Assembly: GCA_031280685.1 (NCBI GenBank)
Contig: JAITGM010000007.1
Location: 62,001 to 126,000, forward strand
DNA length: 64,000 nucleotides
Source: Christensenellaceae bacterium
GTDB lineage: Bacteria > Bacillota > Clostridia > Christensenellales > UBA1750
Reading direction: 5' to 3'
How positions within the stretch are numbered: position 1 is the first letter of the stretch; the number at the start of each line of letters is the position of its first letter. A program made the position numbers and the translations under genes. Below the pieces are notes generated by a model. That model searched no databases. It was not told the origin of the DNA and saw nothing but the letters and a program-made list of their open reading frames with translations. Shown piece by piece: positions 16,174 to 62,597 of the stretch.

Positions 16174-16917
16174 TTAGTCCTGTTTTATGAATGCGTCAGT
16201 AAAGCCCGCCGCCTTCGCCTTCTTCAAGGTTGCTTCGGCGTTGGCTTTTACCGAATACGCGCCAATTTGTACGCGGTAGAGCTTGCCGGACGGCTCCGGC
16301 GTGGTCGTCCCGCTCCCGTCGCCCGGCGTGTTGGCCGCCTTCATTTCGGCGGCTACGTCTGCGCGGAAGGTGTCCATGCTCTTCCCATGCTTCGGAAACC
16401 AGTTTTTCGGATCGCCGTGATTGCTGGCAATGCCGCGGGCGTGTCCCTCATAATGCCCGATAATCACGCCATCGGCTGCCGGGTTCAGCCCGAAAAGCCC
16501 GCATAAATAGGCGCAAAGCTCCACGGCCTCGCGGTACACTGCGTTGAAGTATGCCGCGTCGGTCAAGCCGTCTTCGCAAATCTCGAAGCCTATGTGCGTG
16601 TCGTTCACCGAACCTTTATTACCGCTGCCGCCGTGCCATCCGCGCATATCCCACGGCAAGGTTTGATATGTTGCAATGCTGCCATCGGCCAGCTTTCCAA
16701 TAAATCCATGCACGCAAACTTGCCGCCCGTCCGGTTTGTTCTGGTTCCAGTGGTTGTTATACTGGTTTTTTCCTAACAAGCCGTCGTCCGGCCCCACGTA
16801 GCGCTTCAAATTCGGATTGTTCGCACCCGTGGAGTGAACCATAATACCCTTCACCGCAAGAGCCTTGCCCGCTTTGTAACAGTCGTTTTCCGTGAAAATC
16901 AGCTTTCGCAAATTCAT
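16174..16917 (-). CDS. N-acetylmuramoyl-L-alanine amidase with SPOR domain
   Basis: 247 aa. An Amidase_2 (PGRP-like) domain covers residues 1-180: IMVHSTGANNPNLKRYV carries the first zinc His, and GHYEGHARGIASNHGDPKNWFP the later zinc ligands. A Gly/Thr/Pro linker leads to a C-terminal SPOR-like repeat (YRVQIGAYSVKANAEATLKKAKAAGF). It cuts the amide between muramic acid and the stem peptide. Its start overlaps the stop of the upstream small membrane gene by 4 bases. Confidence 0.92.
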   Translation of the reverse strand: MNLRKLIFTENDCYKAGKALAVKGIMVHSTGANNPNLKRYVGPDDGLLGKNQYNNHWNQNKPDGRQVCVHGFIGKLADGSIATYQTLPWDMRGWHGGSGNKGSVNDTHIGFEICEDGLTDAAYFNAVYREAVELCAYLCGLFGLNPAADGVIIGHYEGHARGIASNHGDPKNWFPKHGKSMDTFRADVAAEMKAANTPGDGSGTTTPEPSGKLYRVQIGAYSVKANAEATLKKAKAAGFTDAFIKQD

Positions 16918-17231: not shown

Positions 17232-17758
17232 TATTTCACCGCCTCCCACTGCCACATTCCCGGCGTATCAGGCGGGTAAACGCAATTCGGCATATCGGCC
17301 TTCGCCAGATATACCGCGCCTTTGTAGCTGTAATATTTGCCGCTTTCCACCGCTACCAGAATACCCGCCGTTTCCGGGTATGGCATGGGATCGTCCTTTG
17401 TCCCGGCTGCGGTAAGCTCCACAAGGCGGTAATACGCAAAAGTGGTTTCAACCGGGTAGGCTGCATTCGACGTGTGCGCCGCCACGATTTCAAAGAGAAG
17501 ATCGCCGCTGCGTATGATTTCGCCTTTCTTGTAGGCTGTGTCAAGCGCATATTCTGGATAGTCCACAATGTCAGCGGATTGCAGGATCATTTCGTCAGTA
17601 ATGACATTTGCGCCGCTGGCACGGTCTGCTGCAATCTGCGCCCGGAATGAAAGCGAAAGCAAAGCGGCGGTGCTTTCGCCCGCCGCCTGTATCTGCTCCA
17701 TATCCTTTTTTATGGCCTCTGTTTCGTCCGGCCTGTCTTTTTTATGATTTACACTCAT
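17231..17758 (-). CDS. Phage tail accessory protein with CBM5/12-like segments
   Basis: 175 aa. Two short modules resemble the carbohydrate-binding type 5/12 fold: YALDTAYKKGEIIRSGDLLFEIVAAHTS and GKYYSYKGAVYLAKADMPNC...PGMWQW. Such modules are frequent in proteins at the tip of Firmicute phage tails, where they may touch cell-wall sugars. It directly follows the DGR target gene with a 4-base overlap, so it belongs to the tail tip/receptor-binding group. Confidence 0.6.
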   Translation of the reverse strand: MSVNHKKDRPDETEAIKKDMEQIQAAGESTAALLSLSFRAQIAADRASGANVITDEMILQSADIVDYPEYALDTAYKKGEIIRSGDLLFEIVAAHTSNAAYPVETTFAYYRLVELTAAGTKDDPMPYPETAGILVAVESGKYYSYKGAVYLAKADMPNCVYPPDTPGMWQWEAVK

Positions 17759-19488
17759 TCAAAATTACCTCCCACACCGGAAACCCAGCATTCGCCGACA
17801 GCGCCGTTTCTGGCTACCGTAATACGAAGCCCCAAGCCGGAATTTATGGCATACTGTGACGTATTTTCAAATACGTGCGCCGTACCCTGCAAAACCTTTG
17901 TTGTCATGTCCTCCCACACGGGCGACGTGTCAAACGGGTTATTGCTCACTTCCACGCGGAAGGTTGCGCCCGCGGGTATCTGCCTGTGAACAATGACATT
18001 TACGCGCTTCGGCTGCGCGTCAGCATTGAAAGGCTGCGAAAGCCCGATTGTGAAGCCGTCAACCTGTTTCGTGAATGTCATTGTGCGGGAAGCAGTATTC
18101 CCGGCGCTGTCTGTGGCCGTGATTTTCAAAGAATGCTGGCCGTTTGCCAGCTTCACGAAGTCCACGCCCGCCACATTCGCCGTTTGCTCCACGCCCAGCG
18201 GCGGCGTGAACGTGCGGATCGTGTTGTCGCCCACGGCCTCAACCGCCGTTACCGCGTCGCCGTCCGGATCGGTCACGGTGTAGGCGTAGCCGAAGTCCCC
18301 GGACTTAACGCCCAAATCGCCGTTTGTGCCGGAAATGGCCGGCGGCTGGTTGTGTATGACGGCAACCGCGCCGCCTGTTACATAGGCGCTTTCGTTTCCG
18401 TAGCTGTCCACGGCCTTCACGCGGTATTTTATCGTATTCCACGCCGTAGACACGGTTTCGCTGAACGTCAGCCCCGCCGTGCTTGTGGCCTGCGTGTAGC
18501 TGCCGTTATTTACGCTTCGTTCCAGCTTGTAGGTGATTGCGTCGCCGTCCGGATCAGTGGCCGCGCCCCACGAAATATTTATAGGCTGGCTGCTGTAGCA
18601 CGTCGAAGGCGTGGTTATCCCCGCGGGCGCGGAAGGCGCACTATTGAAGATAATTTCATAGTTGCCATCTGAATTTACACTGTCAGATACCAAGATTTCA
18701 GAGGACAGATTACAAAGCGGACGAACGCCCCTGACACCGTAGTACGCGCTGTAGTTGATCAACGCGCCGGACGTGATGACGCTGCGCACGTTGCAGGAGT
18801 TCGACACGTTAGGCGTGCGAAGCCACCAGTACCACGCCGCCGTAGTATTCAAGCTTGCGTTTGTGTACTCTGAATTACTCACGCATTCGCTTGTCGGATA
18901 CGCAAGGCGGCTTGCATCGTCGCTGAAAAGCGCCAGCTTCACGCCCTCGGCAATGCTGTTTTCATTGGCAAGCCCTACTTCGGTAGTGGACGGCAAAAAC
19001 ATTTTCGCCGTGAAGGTTTCGTAGCTGCCGCCGTCTACCGTTGCTTTAACCACCGAAAGCGTAGTTGTCATAAGCGCATCTACAAACTGCGCCGGAAGCA
19101 TGGCAAGGAAGCCCGCCCACTGATCGTATTCGTTATAATTCTGGTACACGTTCGCATTCGTCGGCGGCGCGTCCGCGCTGTGCTTCGCGCTGTACCACGC
19201 TCCCGCCGCGGCGTTGCTGTTCAGCCATTGCAGAATATTTGAATGAATGTGCCTGTTATTACCGTACTGCTTGCGGTTGCTGTCGCTGTTGCTGGCCTCT
19301 ATAGCGTCAGAACACATTAGCTGTATAATTTTATCCGTTATGAGCGTTACCGCCCCGGACGGATAACCCGTATGGTTCTTGTCAGCAACCTTGAATACAA
19401 TTTTGCTGCCGAAACGCGATTGAAACGCCGAATTGACAGGTATTTCAACCTTGTTCCCCACCGCCAGCGTGCTTAATGCCTTTGGCAT
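17755..19488 (-). CDS. DGR target 1: tail protein with DUF6273-like variable domain and Ig/FN3-like repeats
   Basis: 577 aa. Residues about 1-265 form a DUF6273/C-type-lectin-like domain (WYWWLRTPN...GVRGVRPLC) whose residues 228-258 are variable region 1. An FN3-like domain (about 275-365), a second Ig/cadherin-like domain with two TDPDGDA motifs, and a C-terminal beta-rich region follow. By analogy to Mtd-type and other DGR targets it is inferred to be the receptor-binding tip of the tail. Start ATG 19488 follows GGAAGGTG; a GTG 9 bases upstream lies within that site. It overlaps the RT gene by 44 bases. Confidence 0.88.
   Translation of the reverse strand: MPKALSTLAVGNKVEIPVNSAFQSRFGSKIVFKVADKNHTGYPSGAVTLITDKIIQLMCSDAIEASNSDSNRKQYGNNRHIHSNILQWLNSNAAAGAWYSAKHSADAPPTNANVYQNYNEYDQWAGFLAMLPAQFVDALMTTTLSVVKATVDGGSYETFTAKMFLPSTTEVGLANENSIAEGVKLALFSDDASRLAYPTSECVSNSEYTNASLNTTAAWYWWLRTPNVSNSCNVRSVITSGALINYSAYYGVRGVRPLCNLSSEILVSDSVNSDGNYEIIFNSAPSAPAGITTPSTCYSSQPINISWGAATDPDGDAITYKLERSVNNGSYTQATSTAGLTFSETVSTAWNTIKYRVKAVDSYGNESAYVTGGAVAVIHNQPPAISGTNGDLGVKSGDFGYAYTVTDPDGDAVTAVEAVGDNTIRTFTPPLGVEQTANVAGVDFVKLANGQHSLKITATDSAGNTASRTMTFTKQVDGFTIGLSQPFNADAQPKRVNVIVHRQIPAGATFRVEVSNNPFDTSPVWEDMTTKVLQGTAHVFENTSQYAINSGLGLRITVARNGAVGECWVSGVGGNFE
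18715..18807 (-). other. DGR variable region VR1
   Basis: 93 bases aligned without gaps to the template repeat at 20704-20796. They differ at nine positions, all of them A in the template on the coding strand. The 3' end in coding sense is an adenine-free 17-base block (GGGGCGTTCGTCCGCTT), the expected G/C-rich initiation segment. Homology to TR stops sharply on both sides. Confidence 0.96.
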
Positions 19489-20527
19489 CGTCGTCACCTT
19501 CCTTTTTGAATAGTTTGTCGTAGTAAATATCCATCCGGTGAATTAAGTGGTAACAGTCACCTTTAGAGGCATGAGCGCGCCAGCTTTGATATGATTGCGC
19601 AACCGTGGCGCGGTCAATTTTGCCTTCGTCCAGCAAATGCCGCATTTTCTTTAACTTCCTGCGCGCGTTATTCTTTGACTTGCGGCGCACCTTTCGGACA
19701 ACGCCGCCCGTTTCGGTCAAATACGTATGAAAGCCTAAAAAGTCAATACCGTTTTTCAGCGGATAAATATTTGTTTTTCCATTAAGCGAAAGCCCCAAAG
19801 CGCCGACGTGCTTTTCGATCTCCCGCAAGCAATGGCGCAAATATTCCTTGTCTTCATGGATTAAGTAGAAGTCGTCCATGTAGCGCCCGTAGAATTTCAC
19901 GCCCAATTTTTCCTTGATAAAATGATCCATGTCATTCAGGTAGAGCAAGGCGAACAGCTGCGAAGTTTGGTTGCCTATAGGAATGCCGACATTGCCTTCG
20001 GTGCTGTCTATAATCATATCCAGCAACCAAATGACATCGGGATCGGCAATGCGTTTGCGGATTAAAAGTTTTAACAGGTCGTGCCTAATGGAATAGAAAT
20101 ACTTTGAAATGTCGCATTTCAATACCCACCCGTCAACACTGTTTCTTCTGTAAAACTTCCGCATGAAGCCCTCCAGCCTGTCAAGCCCGTAATGCGTGCC
20201 TTTTCCTACTTGCGAAGCGTAGTTGTCTTGAATGAAACTGCGCGTAAAATTCGGCTGTAAGACATTATCGCATAGGGCGTGCTGCACAACCTTGTCTTTG
20301 TAGCTGTTCGACATGACAACCCGCTTTTTCGGTTCGTACACCATAAATACGTTGTACGGCGAAAGCGTGTATGTCTTCGTGCGTAGCTGCTCACTTAACA
20401 GGTTCAAAGCCTCCAGCAAATTCACTTCAAATTTAGCTGCCGCCTGCTTCCACCTTTTGCCCCGGCGCGCCGCTCTGTAGGCGCGGTAGAGGCTTTCAAA
20501 CTGGTAAACCTTTTCAAATTCGCTCAT
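19445..20527 (-). CDS. DGR reverse transcriptase
   Basis: 360 aa. Catalytic Asp lies in KCDISKYFYSI (about residue 139) and in YGRYMDDFYLI (YMDD at about 216-219). The IPIGNQTSQ motif at about 182-190 is the DGR-lineage version of RT motif 4. C-terminal GIDFLGFHTYL and a basic thumb region follow. The protein copies TR RNA into cDNA with errors at adenines, and the cDNA then replaces VR sequence. No endonuclease or maturase domain is present, so it is not a group II intron RT. It sits directly after TR and overlaps the first target gene. Confidence 0.96.
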   Translation of the reverse strand: MSEFEKVYQFESLYRAYRAARRGKRWKQAAAKFEVNLLEALNLLSEQLRTKTYTLSPYNVFMVYEPKKRVVMSNSYKDKVVQHALCDNVLQPNFTRSFIQDNYASQVGKGTHYGLDRLEGFMRKFYRRNSVDGWVLKCDISKYFYSIRHDLLKLLIRKRIADPDVIWLLDMIIDSTEGNVGIPIGNQTSQLFALLYLNDMDHFIKEKLGVKFYGRYMDDFYLIHEDKEYLRHCLREIEKHVGALGLSLNGKTNIYPLKNGIDFLGFHTYLTETGGVVRKVRRKSKNNARRKLKKMRHLLDEGKIDRATVAQSYQSWRAHASKGDCYHLIHRMDIYYDKLFKKEGDDDAKGIKHAGGGEQG

Positions 20528-20703
20528 AAAAGAAACTCCTTGCCGTATATAGCCTTCGCCTTGCCGGGCAATGCATCGGCATCGGCAATCCTGTATTTAT
20601 CCCCGCTGTGGTTGGCGGCGACGGGATGCACCTTCCTTTGATGGTGGTTCTCTGTTTTCGGCCGGCCGCATGGCGGCGGCCTACTCAATCGCAATTTCCA
20701 CCG

Positions 20704-20796
20704 AAGCGGACGAACGCCCCTGTTACCGTTGTACGCGTTGTTGTTGTTCAACGCGCCGGACGTGTTGACGTTGCGCACGTTGTAGGAGTTCGACAC
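20704..20796 (-). other. DGR template repeat (TR)
   Basis: A 93-base non-coding unit between avd and the RT, read on the minus strand. It carries clustered AAC codon-like triplets corresponding to NSYNVRNVNTSGALNNNN, the adenine-rich positions that become variable. It matches VR1 over all 93 bases and VR2 over 78 bases except at adenines. The transcript from 20818 to 20528 would be the template RNA. Confidence 0.96.
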
Positions 20797-20818: not shown

Positions 20819-21217
20819 CTATGCTCTCGTTTTATCCCGCTTTTTCCACGCGGCGGTCATAGCCTTAACTTCGATAACCAGTTTTGACCAATATTCGCAA
20901 CTGGAAAGCGAAATGAAGCCCATTTCCTGCGAAAGCTCTATAAGAAAAAGAAGCTCCTTGCAATAGGTCATCGCCCTTGCCTGTAGCCTCTGCCGCTGCA
21001 CCTTTTCGGCTGCGTCCCGTAGGTCTAATTCGTTGGCCTCTAAGACGCATTCAAAAATGCTTAATGATTTATCCTGTATCCGGTTCACTATGGTAAATCG
21101 GTACTTCTTCGGGAATTTGTTTGTGTTGCTGCTCACTGTGAAGGTGTGCTTTACAAGGTCTTTCGCCTTCACAATCACCCCGAATTCGTTTTGTTCCTTT
21201 TGCTGTTGTGGCGGCAT
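20819..21217 (-). CDS. avd: DGR accessory variability determinant (Avd)
   Basis: 132 aa, predicted all-helical four-helix bundle with a basic surface. Recognisable segments are VKAKDLVKHTFTVSSNTNKFPKKYRFTIVNRI, LEANELDLRDAAEKVQRQRLQ and MTYCKELLFLIELSQEMGFIS, the usual pattern of bacterial Avd proteins. In studied DGRs, Avd forms a pentameric barrel that binds RT and TR RNA and is needed for cDNA synthesis. It lies immediately upstream of TR, the usual avd-TR-RT order. Confidence 0.9.
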   Translation of the reverse strand: MPPQQQKEQNEFGVIVKAKDLVKHTFTVSSNTNKFPKKYRFTIVNRIQDKSLSIFECVLEANELDLRDAAEKVQRQRLQARAMTYCKELLFLIELSQEMGFISLSSCEYWSKLVIEVKAMTAAWKKRDKTRA

Positions 21218-38084: not shown

Positions 38085-38963
38085 TCACCCCCTCTTTTTC
38101 TGCTTTTTCGTTTTTCGCGGCGGCGGCTCCGGCTTTAGGTGCATTTTCGCATATATGTAAGCCCCTGCCACGAATTTAGAACTTTTCACCGCTACTTCGT
38201 CGAAGTCGTATTCGGGAAATAGCTTGCTGAAAATCATCGGCGCGGCTGCGTCCATATCCTGCGCCATGCGCTCGGCCTGCCTTTTGCTGATCTTCGTGTC
38301 GGCGGTTGTTATGGTCGGCTCCTTCAAATTCCGCGAAGCCTGCCAGCGCTTGCTTTTCGTCGGCTGCTTCGTGATATACCGCGCCAACCCTTCCAGCGTG
38401 CCATCCTCCGGCTCTAATTCATCAACGCGAACGCTGCCATGCGGCCAAAGGCTTTTTACTGTTTTTCTATCCATGCCGGACATGATAACGTGATGGTGAA
38501 CCCGTGTCCTGCGCCCGTCGCCGTTGTAAAACTCAATCACGTAAACATACTTCAATTCCGAAAGCCCGTTTTTGCGCCGATATGTGCGAACCCGACGAAT
38601 GAAATTGCGTATGTCCCGGCGCGCCTGTTCTTCCTCTGGTAACACGCCGCGCTTGTAAGTAAGCGTTACATGGAGGTCTTCCGGCGTAAAGTTGGCATTG
38701 ATTTTCCGGATCAGTTTCTTTTTTGCGTTCCGGTCGTTCAAATTCTGCTGTGCTTCTCGGCTGGAATGCACCTTCGCCGCCCGAACCTCGTTTTTCGTGT
38801 TCCAAAGCGGGTAAACCTCCACTTCCAGAACCTGACCGCTTTTTATCGTGGCCGCCCTGTATCTGAAAATATCTTTGTGCCGCAATGCTTCAAAAGCGCT
38901 TTCTGTAAGCTCGCCGCACATCTGGTCAAAAAGAAATTCATAGTTTTTTGCGCTATACGGCAT
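38085..38963 (-). CDS. HUH rolling-circle replication initiator-like protein
   Basis: 292 aa. Three HUH endonuclease motifs are visible: motif 1 LHVTLTYKRG, the HUH motif RVHHHVIMSG and motif 3 LARYITKQ with the presumed nicking Tyr and Lys. Such proteins nick one DNA strand and stay covalently attached, starting rolling-circle synthesis. The C-terminus is strongly basic. Rep proteins of this class occur in filamentous phages, plasmids and some Firmicute prophages. Confidence 0.8.
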   Translation of the reverse strand: MPYSAKNYEFLFDQMCGELTESAFEALRHKDIFRYRAATIKSGQVLEVEVYPLWNTKNEVRAAKVHSSREAQQNLNDRNAKKKLIRKINANFTPEDLHVTLTYKRGVLPEEEQARRDIRNFIRRVRTYRRKNGLSELKYVYVIEFYNGDGRRTRVHHHVIMSGMDRKTVKSLWPHGSVRVDELEPEDGTLEGLARYITKQPTKSKRWQASRNLKEPTITTADTKISKRQAERMAQDMDAAAPMIFSKLFPEYDFDEVAVKSSKFVAGAYIYAKMHLKPEPPPRKTKKQKKRG

Positions 38964-39727: not shown

Positions 39728-40102
39728 TTATCCGTAATTTTCGCCGTCGAATTCTTCATACTCGCCGCAATCTGGTTCGCCCTCTTTTGGCGAATAGCGG
39801 ATACCGTCCACGCAACCGACGCACGGGAACGGATTTTCTTCATCCGTTTCGGCGCTGCCATCGTCAAGCGGGCAATGCGCCAGCTTCGCGCACGTGTTGC
39901 ACCAACACGCTTTACAGTCGGCAATATTCGTTTTGCCCGGCGTTGCCGCTGCTGGTTTTTCGTCCTGCGTCCAGTAAAGAGCCTCCATCGCCGTAGGGAA
40001 CACAACTTCAAGAAACTTCGTGCGTTCCCGGTCGATAAAGTCCGGATCACCGTGCGCTTCGAATTCAATGTCGGCTATCTTATATCTAACGCGGCTTTCC
40101 AT
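39728..40102 (-). CDS. Cysteine-rich early phage protein, 124 aa
   Basis: N-terminal half MESRVRYKIADIEFEAHGDPDFIDRERTKFLEVVFPTAMEALYW is followed by a cysteine cluster (DCKACWCNTCAKLAHCPL...FPCVGCVDG...DCGEYEE) that could bind zinc or an Fe-S cluster. No family recognised. The start overlaps the end of the 48-aa membrane peptide gene, so translation is probably coupled. Confidence 0.7.
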   Translation of the reverse strand: MESRVRYKIADIEFEAHGDPDFIDRERTKFLEVVFPTAMEALYWTQDEKPAAATPGKTNIADCKACWCNTCAKLAHCPLDDGSAETDEENPFPCVGCVDGIRYSPKEGEPDCGEYEEFDGENYG

Positions 40103-40232
40103 TCCCGCGGCCTCCTTTTATAATGTTGCGTATGCAGGCCAGCACCACGGCCACGATCAGCGCCGCGCCTCCTGCGCAAGCAACGCCCACAAGCAAATAG
40201 AAGGCGTTTGCCATAAATTGAAATGCCGTCAT
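40086..40232 (-). CDS. 48-aa single-pass membrane peptide downstream of the VR2 protein
   Basis: ATG 40232 overlaps the stop of the VR2 gene (ATGA) and its own TAG overlaps the start of the next gene. One hydrophobic helix (FYLLVGVACAGGAALIVAVVLACI) is followed by a basic tail (RNIIKGGRGNGKPR), so the C-terminus should face the cytoplasm. Tight translational coupling to the DGR-diversified protein suggests stoichiometric expression and perhaps membrane anchoring of it; this is inference. Confidence 0.7.
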   Translation of the reverse strand: MTAFQFMANAFYLLVGVACAGGAALIVAVVLACIRNIIKGGRGNGKPR

Positions 40233-41044
40233 TTGTCATCGCCTCCGAAAAAGTTTATAGTGCGGGCGAAGTGGAACATCAATTCCCACGCTTGCGTTTC
40301 ATTAAAGCCCGCCGTTTGAAATTCGCTATACATATTAAATAAGGTATGTGCCAGCTGGCCGAAGTCGCATTCGTCTTCGTCCGGCTCTTCTTTTTCCTGT
40401 GCGTATGGCGCGGGCGGCGCTTCGCCGAAGAAGTTTTTGTAAAGCGCGTCCATGATTTCCGAAAATGGCGCTTTTACACGCTGCTTCACTTCGGCTTCAT
40501 CGTAAGATACCGAAATATCAGATTTCAGATAACAAAGCGGACGAACGCCCCAGCTACCGTGGTACGCGCGGCTGTTGTCCAACGCGCCGGACGTGTTGAC
40601 GCTGCGCACGTTACGGGAATTTCCGTTCCGCTCGGTCGTCCACGGTGTACAAGTCCACCACCAATCAGACGCATCCGGGATCAGCTTTCTATAATGGCGG
40701 TACATGTCGCATGTGATAAGGCCAATTGTTACGGTTTCCTTGCCGTAGTCCGTTAACCCGTCGTCCGAAGTCAAATCCAGCGCAATAGGCCGGAAAGCTT
40801 CCTTGTCCGCGCCGCCCTCTATGAGCGCGCTCAAAAACTCTTCATTCAAATATGCGCGAAGAGAAGAGGCGGCAAAGTCGTTTTTGTTGTCTTCGTCGAA
40901 GGCGCGTTCCTCCAGCACGTCGGCGGCAAGGCACAACGCCGCATTTGGCCTATGCTCCAGCACAACCCATTTCACGCCGCCGTATGTAAAGCGGCTTCCG
41001 GCCTCCAGCGTCGAAAGTGTCCCGGTTTTCATTGCGGTTTCCAT
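40229..41044 (-). CDS. DGR target 2: early DUF6273-like protein carrying VR2
   Basis: 271 aa. The domain (LRAYLNEEFLSALI...WWWTCTPW...VRSVNTSGALDNSRAYHGSWGVRPLC) is homologous to the variable domain of the tail target, and residues 145-170 are VR2. No signal peptide or Ig-like repeats are present; the C-terminal 75 residues are a helical tail (FSEIMDALYKNFFGEAPP...CDFGQLAHTLFNMYSEFQTAG). It therefore seems to be an intracellular protein. It lies in the early operon after the MazG-like gene, with AAGGAG before its ATG, and is coupled to a small membrane peptide. Confidence 0.88.
   Translation of the reverse strand: METAMKTGTLSTLEAGSRFTYGGVKWVVLEHRPNAALCLAADVLEERAFDEDNKNDFAASSLRAYLNEEFLSALIEGGADKEAFRPIALDLTSDDGLTDYGKETVTIGLITCDMYRHYRKLIPDASDWWWTCTPWTTERNGNSRNVRSVNTSGALDNSRAYHGSWGVRPLCYLKSDISVSYDEAEVKQRVKAPFSEIMDALYKNFFGEAPPAPYAQEKEEPDEDECDFGQLAHTLFNMYSEFQTAGFNETQAWELMFHFARTINFFGGDDK
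40535..40612 (-). other. DGR variable region VR2 (remote)
   Basis: 78 bases aligned without gaps to the 3' part of the template repeat at 20704-20781. It differs at eight positions, all adenine in the template. The adenine-free 17-base 3' block is identical to TR and VR1. Beyond it, VR1 and VR2 continue to resemble each other (CTTTGT.ATCTG) while TR does not, as expected for the IMH side. It lies about 19.8 kb from TR. Confidence 0.95.
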
Positions 41045-41094: not shown

Positions 41095-41535
41095 TTAGCA
41101 TTTTTTGCCGCCGTGACGATATGGGCGGCTTTTGTTGTATTCGTGCTTAATACGGATCGCTCGTTCAATGTCAATTCCGGCGTGGCCGCAATAGTCCAAA
41201 ATGCGTATAATGCAGTCTGCCAGCTCCACGGCCACACCTTCCGGCTTTTCCACTCTGTCCGTGCATTCTTCGCAATGGCCGCAATCAGCGTCGGAACTGT
41301 CGGCAATCCGATCTTGCGGATCGTCTTCGTGCAATGTTTCTTTACACTTGTGATAAACCATCGGCATTCCGTCCCTAAATTCTTCCAACGCCTCCGCAAG
41401 CTCCGACACGCAAAGCATAAGAATTTCCGGAAGGCCACGCGGTTCTTCCCACCAGCCATGCGCAACCGCGTTTTGGTGGATTTCTGCGGCAAGCTCATTC
41501 ATGCCAGTGCCGGGCGCTACTGTGTTAATGTCCAT
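41095..41535 (-). CDS. MazG-like nucleotide pyrophosphohydrolase
   Basis: 146 aa from ATG 41535. LCVSELAEALEEFRDGMP and VAVELADCIIRILDYCGHAGIDIERAIRIKHEYNKSRP form the ExxE...ExxD metal-binding helices of the all-alpha NTP pyrophosphatase superfamily. A Cys-rich insert (DADCGHCEECTD) separates them. Phage MazG proteins hydrolyse dNTPs or (p)ppGpp-like signals. It lies just upstream of the VR2 protein gene. Confidence 0.85.
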   Translation of the reverse strand: MDINTVAPGTGMNELAAEIHQNAVAHGWWEEPRGLPEILMLCVSELAEALEEFRDGMPMVYHKCKETLHEDDPQDRIADSSDADCGHCEECTDRVEKPEGVAVELADCIIRILDYCGHAGIDIERAIRIKHEYNKSRPYRHGGKKC

Positions 41536-50016: not shown

Positions 50017-50492
50017 TGCGCCTCCTCGCCCTGAGCGATAGCCACGGCAACGCGCAGGCCCTGCGCGCCCTCGCACCCTTTATTGAGGCCCTGCGGCCCG
50101 ACCATATCGCCCATTTGGGCGACTATGCATCGGATGGACAACTGCTTGCGGCCTGCGCGGGGCGGGAAGTAATCCAAGTGCGTGGCAACGGCGATTTTGC
50201 CTTTGGCGAGCTGCCCGCCGAGCTCGTTCTTGAGTTGGGTGCCGCGAAAATCCTGCTCACGCACGGGCACCAGCACGCGGTCAAGAGCGGGCTTTCGCGC
50301 CTGTGCGAACGCGCGGGGCAGCTTGGCTGCGCGGCCGCGCTCTTTGGGCACACGCACCTTCCCCATTGCGAAAAGACGGACGGAATCTGGCTCGTAAACC
50401 CGGGTGCGCTCGCAGACCCCGCCGACCCGCGCCGCAAGGGCCTGGCCGTGCTCGAAGCCGAGGGCGACGCGCTCCGCGCGGCGCTTTTATAA
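50013..50492 (+). CDS. YfcE/MJ0936-type metallophosphoesterase
   Basis: 159 aa. LLALSDSHGN, HLGDYASDG, VRGNGDF, THGHQHAV and FGHTHLPH are the five metal-binding motifs of the calcineurin-like YfcE family, and WLVNPGAL is the typical end segment. Usually located after rdgB in Firmicutes, as here with a 4-base overlap. Probable phosphodiesterase; natural substrate unknown. Its last 96 bases are duplicated just downstream. Confidence 0.92.
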   Translation: MMRLLALSDSHGNAQALRALAPFIEALRPDHIAHLGDYASDGQLLAACAGREVIQVRGNGDFAFGELPAELVLELGAAKILLTHGHQHAVKSGLSRLCERAGQLGCAAALFGHTHLPHCEKTDGIWLVNPGALADPADPRRKGLAVLEAEGDALRAALL

Positions 50493-50646
50493 GCTAAACC
50501 CCGCCAGTTGAGCCGCCCCGCTTGTGAAAGGGCGGCGAAATCCGCCCACGAACCCGGGTGCGCTCGCAGACCCCACCGACCCGCGCCGCAAGGGCCTGGC
50601 CGTGCTCGAAGCCGAAGGCGACGCGCTCCAGGCGGCGCTATTTTAA
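50397..50646. repeat. 96-bp direct duplication of the phosphoesterase 3' end
   Basis: 50397-50492 (AACCCGGGTGCG to the stop codon) is repeated at 50551-50646 with six base differences and again ends in a TAA stop. The copies are 58 bases apart. The second copy has no start and is a dead remnant. Confidence 0.9.
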
Positions 50647-61751: not shown

Positions 61752-61919
61752 CCGCATCGCAGCATCGCCTGCGGCGATATTGAACCCTGATTCGTTCGGC
61801 GGCCGCAGGCGAAAGCGACGGCCGAGTCCGACCTTTCCCGCAGGCGGCAAGCCTACCATCGATCCAGAGCAGCTTTTAACCGTTCGGCCCCAAGCGTAGG
61901 GGTTTCATTTCCCCCACGT

Positions 61920-62597
61920 ATGGCGAAAATGGAGCCCTTTTCGCATCGCGACGGTGACTTTTCGCGTCTAATTGCGCGTGAGATTGCCCTCGACTTTGGT
62001 TATCCGAATGCTGTACTCCCCGCTTTCGTAGTTGACTTCCATGATGAGGATCTTCCCCTCGGCCTGGGATCCCAGTGGCGATCTGCGCGCTGCACGGCAG
62101 GGCCTTGAGGTTATCGTCCTAAACCTGTTGATTCAAGGCTAGGTGAGCTATGCGAAGGCCGTCGTCGAATCCCCTCCCCTGGCTGTGGCTTCCATCAGCC
62201 TCTGCCCGGCCACCGCCCTTGCCAGGCTTTTGGGCAGTCTCAGCCCCGCCTTGCCGTCCGCACAAGGCTCAATCCCGCGGCAATCGCGCACGACCAGGAC
62301 GCAATGCGGCGGCTGGTGGACGACGGCGTTTTTCACGATAGGCCGTCGTTCCGTCTCTATGCCCAAATCGCCGCAGCCGGCGAAAATGCACTCGCGGACG
62401 CGTCCAAAATCGCGAACCCTAGCCTGCTTCTGGGCGCGGACGGCGATCAAATCGTTTCCGCGCCCGCGATCGGCGAGCTGGCCTAAAGCGCAAGGCCCCA
62501 TCTGCGCCTGAAGGAGTTTACGGACGGATTTCACTGCCTGCGCCATGACAGCGCACGCGAAGAGGTCCTTTTGGCCATGCTTTGCTTCCTCAAGTGA
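61920..62597 (+). pseudogene. Decayed alpha/beta hydrolase (lysophospholipase-like)
   Basis: The 3' part reads MRRLVDDGVFHDRPSFRLYAQIAAAGENALADASKIANPSLLLGADGDQIV (from 62304), then an in-frame stop, then HLRLKEFTDGFHCLRHDSAREEVLLAMLCFLK. This is the C-terminal half of a monoacylglycerol-lipase-like hydrolase, with the Asp in GADGDQIV and the His in DGFHCL. Upstream the frame is broken repeatedly and no intact nucleophile elbow is seen. The 5' limit is uncertain. Confidence 0.65.

Follow-up and report, generated by a model that had tools for sequence, protein, structure and literature searches.

What role does a short membrane peptide play when its gene lies directly after a phage DGR target? 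Phage DGR targets are mostly taken to be virion receptor-binding proteins. In the window (the whole 64,000-nt stretch of Christensenellaceae contig JAITGM010000007.1 analysed here), a prophage of this gut bacterium carries its second DGR target as an early-operon gene. A first-pass annotation had proposed that this variable protein and a 48-aa peptide encoded beside it form a two-part unit, in which the peptide would serve either as an anchor or as a membrane effector.

The prophage and its remote DGR target

The main DGR cassette lies on the minus strand and consists of the reverse transcriptase (RT; 19445..20527; PF00078, 6.8e-15; phrog_1423, 1.4e-134), the template repeat region (TR; 20671..20790) and the Avd accessory protein (20819..21217; phrog_3206, 7.3e-27; the bAvd match at 1.9e-7 was below the Pfam cut-off). 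The cassette-proximal target (17755..19497, minus strand; VR1 at 18682-18801) is a 580-aa tentaclin or Hoc-like decoration protein with N-terminal DUF6273 and Ig domains, which matched phrog_10993 (2e-189) and was 67% identical to target 1 (tgt1) of nd12, a published two-target DGR phage (PMC10743442). Homologues of 34 of the 51 nd12 proteins were present in the window in largely colinear order, and this identifies the window prophage as an integrated relative of nd12. Just outside the prophage, at 50397-50646, a phosphoesterase-like gene ends in a 96-nt segment of which a second copy, 94% identical, lies close by.

The remote target gene (40229..41044, minus strand) lies about 20 kb from the tentaclin gene and encodes a 271-aa C-type-lectin-like protein, the orthologue of nd12 tgt2, with matches to Pfam DUF6273 (E 4.7e-11) and phrog_9958 (1.5e-65). 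Its 78-nt VR2 core (40535..40612, minus strand) differs from TR at eight positions, and all eight mismatches fall at TR adenines, which make up 21 of the 78 template bases of the core. The premise that this gene is a remote DGR target was therefore sound. The remote VR also differed between near-identical phages (L067/L068, L043/L044 and nd12/L037), indicating that the target is diversified in nature.

Structural comparison of the AlphaFold model of the VR2 protein (pLDDT 71.9) picked up numerous C-type lectins, at Z ~5 and so short of the guide value of Z 8, and a Foldseek search with this model returned nothing at E<=0.001. The predicted fold appears C-lectin-like, and the published model of nd12_tgt2 also has a C-lectin fold (PMC10743442). 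Separately, residues 7-186 of the model aligned at Z 14.4 over 172 residues with residues 32-299 of 9qa6, a Thomasclavelia ramosa IgA peptidase; by this match, a secreted bacterial protease may contain a domain resembling DUF6273. Neither the AlphaFold model nor the hydropathy of the orthologues indicated a transmembrane (TM) segment in the VR2 protein.

The remote target, the peptide and a Cys-rich gene form a three-gene cassette placed in the early operon between a MazG-like pyrophosphatase gene upstream (41095..41529, minus strand; phrog_3301, 7.6e-36) and the gene for a replication initiation protein downstream (38085..38963, minus strand; phrog_3584, 2.3e-76; PF23343). This position bears on the role suggested for nd12 tgt2, that of an Mtd-like virion receptor-binding protein (PMC10743442), under which the peptide would merely assist assembly or be unrelated. 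Consistent with a virion role, the VR is borne on a C-lectin-like predicted fold, the remote target of the G403 phage shares homology with a tail protein (phrog_5302), and there is likewise a relationship between the Hoc-like/tentaclin C-lectin domain and the remote target of a second prophage of the same host (on contig C16). However, the VR2 gene sits in a pyrophosphatase-Rep early/replication operon far from the tentaclin gene, and it is hard to see what a TM peptide would do in a virion. We consider a virion role for VR2 improbable.

The peptide is a conserved phage gene

The peptide is encoded by the middle gene of the cassette (40086..40232, minus strand; translation MTAFQFMANAFYLLVGVACAGGAALIVAVVLACIRNIIKGGRGNGKPR), and we refer to its family as PEP. 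As the first-pass annotation had read it, this ORF specifies a 48-aa membrane peptide whose ATG shares an ATGA (40232-40229) with the stop of the VR2 gene; it also has its own GGAGG 9 nt 5' of the ATG. The hydropathy maximum of 2.68 (Kyte-Doolittle, 19-residue window) falls in a single hydrophobic segment and fits one TM helix. A second overlap, of the peptide stop with the following start, had been misread. The stop, at 40088-40086, does not touch the next start codon; instead the next ORF (39728..40102, minus strand) opens 17 nt within the PEP ORF, preceded by its own AAGGAGG, so the two genes overlap rather than meet stop-on-start. This downstream gene encodes a Cys-rich protein (CYS) with eight conserved cysteines (CxxCWCxxC...C...PFPCxxC...C). 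The window copy retains the Cys domain and differs from its relatives in the N-terminal domain; its AlphaFold model was too poor for use (pLDDT 50.9).

Homologues of the peptide were gathered from viral contigs and nd12, giving a family of 15 diverged members, window copy included, at a single syntenic position in related phages. The homologues were 38-54% identical to the window copy. One of them is already annotated in nd12 (WRQ08100.1, 49% identical, equivalent position). tblastn with the window peptide alone found no match in phages, and the family was reachable only through homologue alignments and neighbouring genes. The possibility that the small frame is unconserved or free of purifying selection can be set aside, as pN was below pS in all 105 pairs of family members, and dN/dS was 0.07-0.40 in most pairs examined, with L042/L058 an outlier at 0.85. 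Conservation and purifying selection together confirm, at the level of sequence, that PEP is a real phage gene and more than a chance ORF.

Searches of Pfam, NCBIfam, PHROGs and PDB with the 15 members assigned PEP to no family, returning just scattered weak TM-type matches, and linked it to no protein whose function is known. Hol_Tox (PF16935) was rejected as an identity for the peptide: nine peptide-bearing phage records gave no match at E<=10, while control genomes matched, and Hol_Tox was absent among the family matches of the 15 members. The same searches matched PEP to no sequence family of superinfection-exclusion membrane proteins. Outside the host, no convincing homologue of PEP or of the Cys-rich protein was found among 396 genomes of the order; the weak matches in this search (E ~0.001) lay mostly within larger frames, and one contained a stop. 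With PEP, the count of conserved small-protein families grows by one that standard libraries have overlooked.

Conservation is uneven along the peptide. The most conserved part is the N-terminal MTxFxFMxNAFYxLxGVxC (residues 1-19; mean pN 0.17), whereas mean pN was 0.43 in the remainder of the TM segment and in the tail, and the basic C-terminal tail ranks with the most variable stretches. In all 15 members there was no K or R in residues 1-12 and there were three to seven beyond residue 33. By the positive-inside rule, this distribution places the N-terminus, and with it the conserved end, outside. PEP is thus predicted, from charge counts, to be a bitopic small membrane protein with its N-terminus out and its basic tail in.

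The size of the peptide and its TM segment would also suit a holin-like peptide or a small membrane toxin, of the type of TxpA/BsrG (Hol_Tox) or one similar to it. The N-terminal start presumably resembles that of BsrG and TxpA, which we treat as a lead only. PEP has in common with these toxins that it is small, hydrophobic and encoded by a prophage, and its start looks similar; unlike them, it has a longer, basic C-terminal tail and gives no profile match, and the amidase gene of the window lies elsewhere (16174-16917). We regard a toxin or holin function as highly improbable.

The peptide persists when its neighbours are exchanged

The two-part proposal rested on translational coupling of the peptide to VR2. 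A DUF6273 target (TGT) lies directly upstream of PEP and overlaps it in seven lineages, by the 4-nt ATGA in the window, nd12, L045 and L067 and by 14 nt in L047, L055 and L065. Elsewhere the arrangement varies: a gap of 70-274 nt separates TGT from PEP in three lineages, an HTH-like or other inserted gene is directly upstream in L043, L064 and L107, and an 89-aa gene takes this place in L050 and L054. In L050/L051 (G403), DUF6273 is replaced by an unrelated 364-aa C-lectin-type protein that holds the remote VR, the pyrophosphatase gene and the 89-aa gene separate this target from PEP, and the gene downstream of PEP is without the Cys domain. PEP is thus kept in L050/L054 despite loss of the adjacent DUF6273 gene and of the Cys domain. 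The G403 remote target itself (L051:3847-4941) is a free tail-protein-like protein whose DNA is ~69-71% identical in parts to the cassette-proximal target; it resembles a duplicated target minus its virion part.

Coupling to VR2 was therefore not conserved. On the downstream side, PEP and the next gene overlap by 14-20 nt in nearly all members, and by 35 nt, from a GTG, in L045. Judged by gene arrangement, the constant coupled neighbour of PEP is the downstream gene and not VR2. The PEP motif was unchanged across swaps of either neighbour. Persistence of the peptide where the VR2-type neighbour is replaced indicates a shared small cassette rather than a proven protein-plus-anchor pair.

These observations weigh on the anchor half of the earlier proposal, in which PEP would hold the VR2 protein, itself cytoplasmic, at the inner membrane face by binding it. 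Such an anchor would suit a VR2 protein that has no TM segment of its own and whose gene, or an orthologue of it, overlaps PEP in the seven lineages given above. However, it would use the cytoplasmic tail of PEP, which is among the least conserved parts. Moreover, PEP persists with an unrelated target protein, and its motif does not co-vary with target type. Conservation of the outer half combined with a variable tail argues against a tail-held anchor, and we give this reading little credence. The effector half fared better, as conservation of the N-terminal half makes an acting membrane component the likelier of the two.

In the sampled loci, the peptide occurs only with early C-lectin-type targets

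So that neither the peptide nor the target would steer the choice of loci, early regions were sampled via two replication-initiator (Rep) families, and loci were scored with profiles for PEP, TGT, an alternative C-lectin target (ALT), CYS and the pyrophosphatase. Among 49 non-redundant loci with upstream sequence, 11 had PEP together with TGT or ALT, 38 had neither and none was discordant (Fisher p 3e-11 on the 49 loci, with kinship not corrected for, Rep alignments seeded from peptide-bearing loci and a TGT profile built on peptide-linked members). A different early DUF6273-like protein without PEP was present in three of the 38 loci with neither, and the one in G419/L116 has a proven remote VR. 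The cassette was found beside two Rep families and required at least 2-3 changes on one Rep tree, which suggests that its genes move or are lost together, although independent gain or loss events were few.

Two VRs were present in each of the six RT-bearing peptide records (nd12, G400, G403, G407, G411 and the window), the remote one lying upstream of the peptide, and the three RT-bearing relatives with a cassette-proximal VR only (G430, G435 and G441) have no peptide. PEP was absent beside the early or remote DUF6273 targets of nd4, Lelie, Toutatis, G419/L116 and the same-host C16 prophage. The presence/absence pattern links PEP to early C-lectin-type DGR targets. The expected co-conservation with remote DUF6273 targets thus held in one direction: among the sampled loci the peptide occurs only with an upstream early C-lectin-type target, but several DUF6273 targets occur without the peptide. 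Likewise, what stands of the two-part unit is this exclusive company, while VR2 itself is not an obligate partner.

Co-inheritance of adjacent genes can be explained by plain linkage, and PEP could be a small membrane protein with a task of its own, such as host takeover or exclusion, whose place in the operon of the DGR target implies no functional link to that target. The constancy of the N-terminal motif would be expected of such a passenger: it holds whether DUF6273, an HTH gene or the 89-aa gene is upstream and despite a changed N-domain or Cys domain downstream, and the upstream overlap is generic, at 4 or 14 nt regardless of the gene. On the other hand, every PEP found was accompanied by an early C-lectin-type target, and every TGT/ALT type by PEP, even by the second Rep family, and in nd12 PEP is the sole annotated protein of <70 aa with a strong TM segment. 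Pure linkage is a serious contender, nearly as likely as the cassette model that we favour.

A candidate membrane-acting component

We tentatively favour a model, short of even odds, in which PEP is the membrane-acting component of the three-gene cassette, whose order is hypermutated C-lectin-type protein, TM peptide, Cys-rich protein. PEP would be the membrane arm, seated in the host membrane, with its conserved N-terminal or outer half contacting a membrane protein or the membrane itself. Variable recognition would come from the diversified C-lectin protein, and the Cys-rich protein would be the cytoplasmic, directly coupled partner of PEP. The putative outcome is an altered host envelope during infection or lysogeny, for example superinfection exclusion or interference with a host factor. 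The insensitivity of the motif to partner swaps suggests that what the conserved end touches lies outside the cassette, or is another copy of itself; together with conservation of the outer half, it favours a membrane-acting cassette component. On this sequence evidence, an active part for PEP in the same pathway is likelier than passive anchoring of VR2.

For other systems, DGR-based recognition has been suggested to work by cytosolic or superinfection-exclusion-like routes (PMC10053308). By extension, though we think this rather unlikely, some phages might have a second, non-virion DGR output, in which an early free C-lectin-type domain, a small membrane protein and a Cys-rich protein make up a variable envelope-level system of exclusion or host interference. 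If so, the two unrelated cases of a small TM gene beside a remote DUF6273 gene, in the C16 prophage and in L017, would be parallel solutions. The role of early remote DGR targets becomes directly testable on three small genes that are gained or lost together.

The C16 case concerns another two-target DGR prophage of the host genome (contig C16 of G000, 61-104 kb; L201-L203), with RT at 102547-103152, TR at 102059-102168, a VR at 104031-104140 and a remote VR at 62404-62513. The remote VR lies in an early DUF6273 gene (61776-62579), the start of which overlaps, by ATGA, a gene for a 104-aa protein that has two hydrophobic segments; homologues of PEP and CYS were not found in this prophage. The L017 phage, a different one that has an RT of its own (G412), encodes a phrog_9958-family DUF6273 protein far from that RT (L017:4971-5641), and a non-homologous 52-aa TM peptide follows 14 nt after it. 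Small Cys-rich zinc-ribbon-like proteins (L035:5825-6004 and L022:5516-5755) that echo CYS have ATGA overlaps with the DUF6273 genes of nd4 and L022. In a post hoc tally, in which the hydrolase with a TM segment that precedes the G419/L116 target is counted, a TM gene adjoined the remote DGR target in ~4 of 8 lineages, against ~10% TM genes in nd12/nd4. Two scans for remote DGR targets beside TM genes yielded 0 and 4 loci.

Comparison with known systems

In the nd4-like phages and the Faecalibacterium phages Lelie and CP11 (PMC10743442, PMC11792537), as in the window, a second small DUF6273 DGR target lies outside the RT cassette; in contrast to the window, nd4, Lelie and the related Toutatis have no homologous peptide beside it. 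DGR targets with membrane anchors in cellular genomes (PMC8144416) likewise place variable C-lectin proteins at a membrane, but there the TM or signal segment is within the target protein, whereas in the window it would be a separate peptide.

The closest known system is nd12, which shares with the window the RT, Avd and TR, the VR1-bearing tentaclin target 1, a remote DUF6273 target 2 with adenine-specific VR2 variation, and the TM peptide and Cys-rich genes directly after it. The window copy differs in being an integrated prophage, of which the authors of the nd12 study found no nd12-like example (PMC10743442), and in the N-terminal domain of the Cys-rich protein and the C-terminal extension of VR2. 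The peptide after target 2 is common to both and lies outside the published definition of nd12, in which the membrane peptide, the membrane and the operon context are unmentioned (PMC10743442). The finding in the window is therefore an unrecognised conserved small-protein family within a known class of two-target DGR phage.
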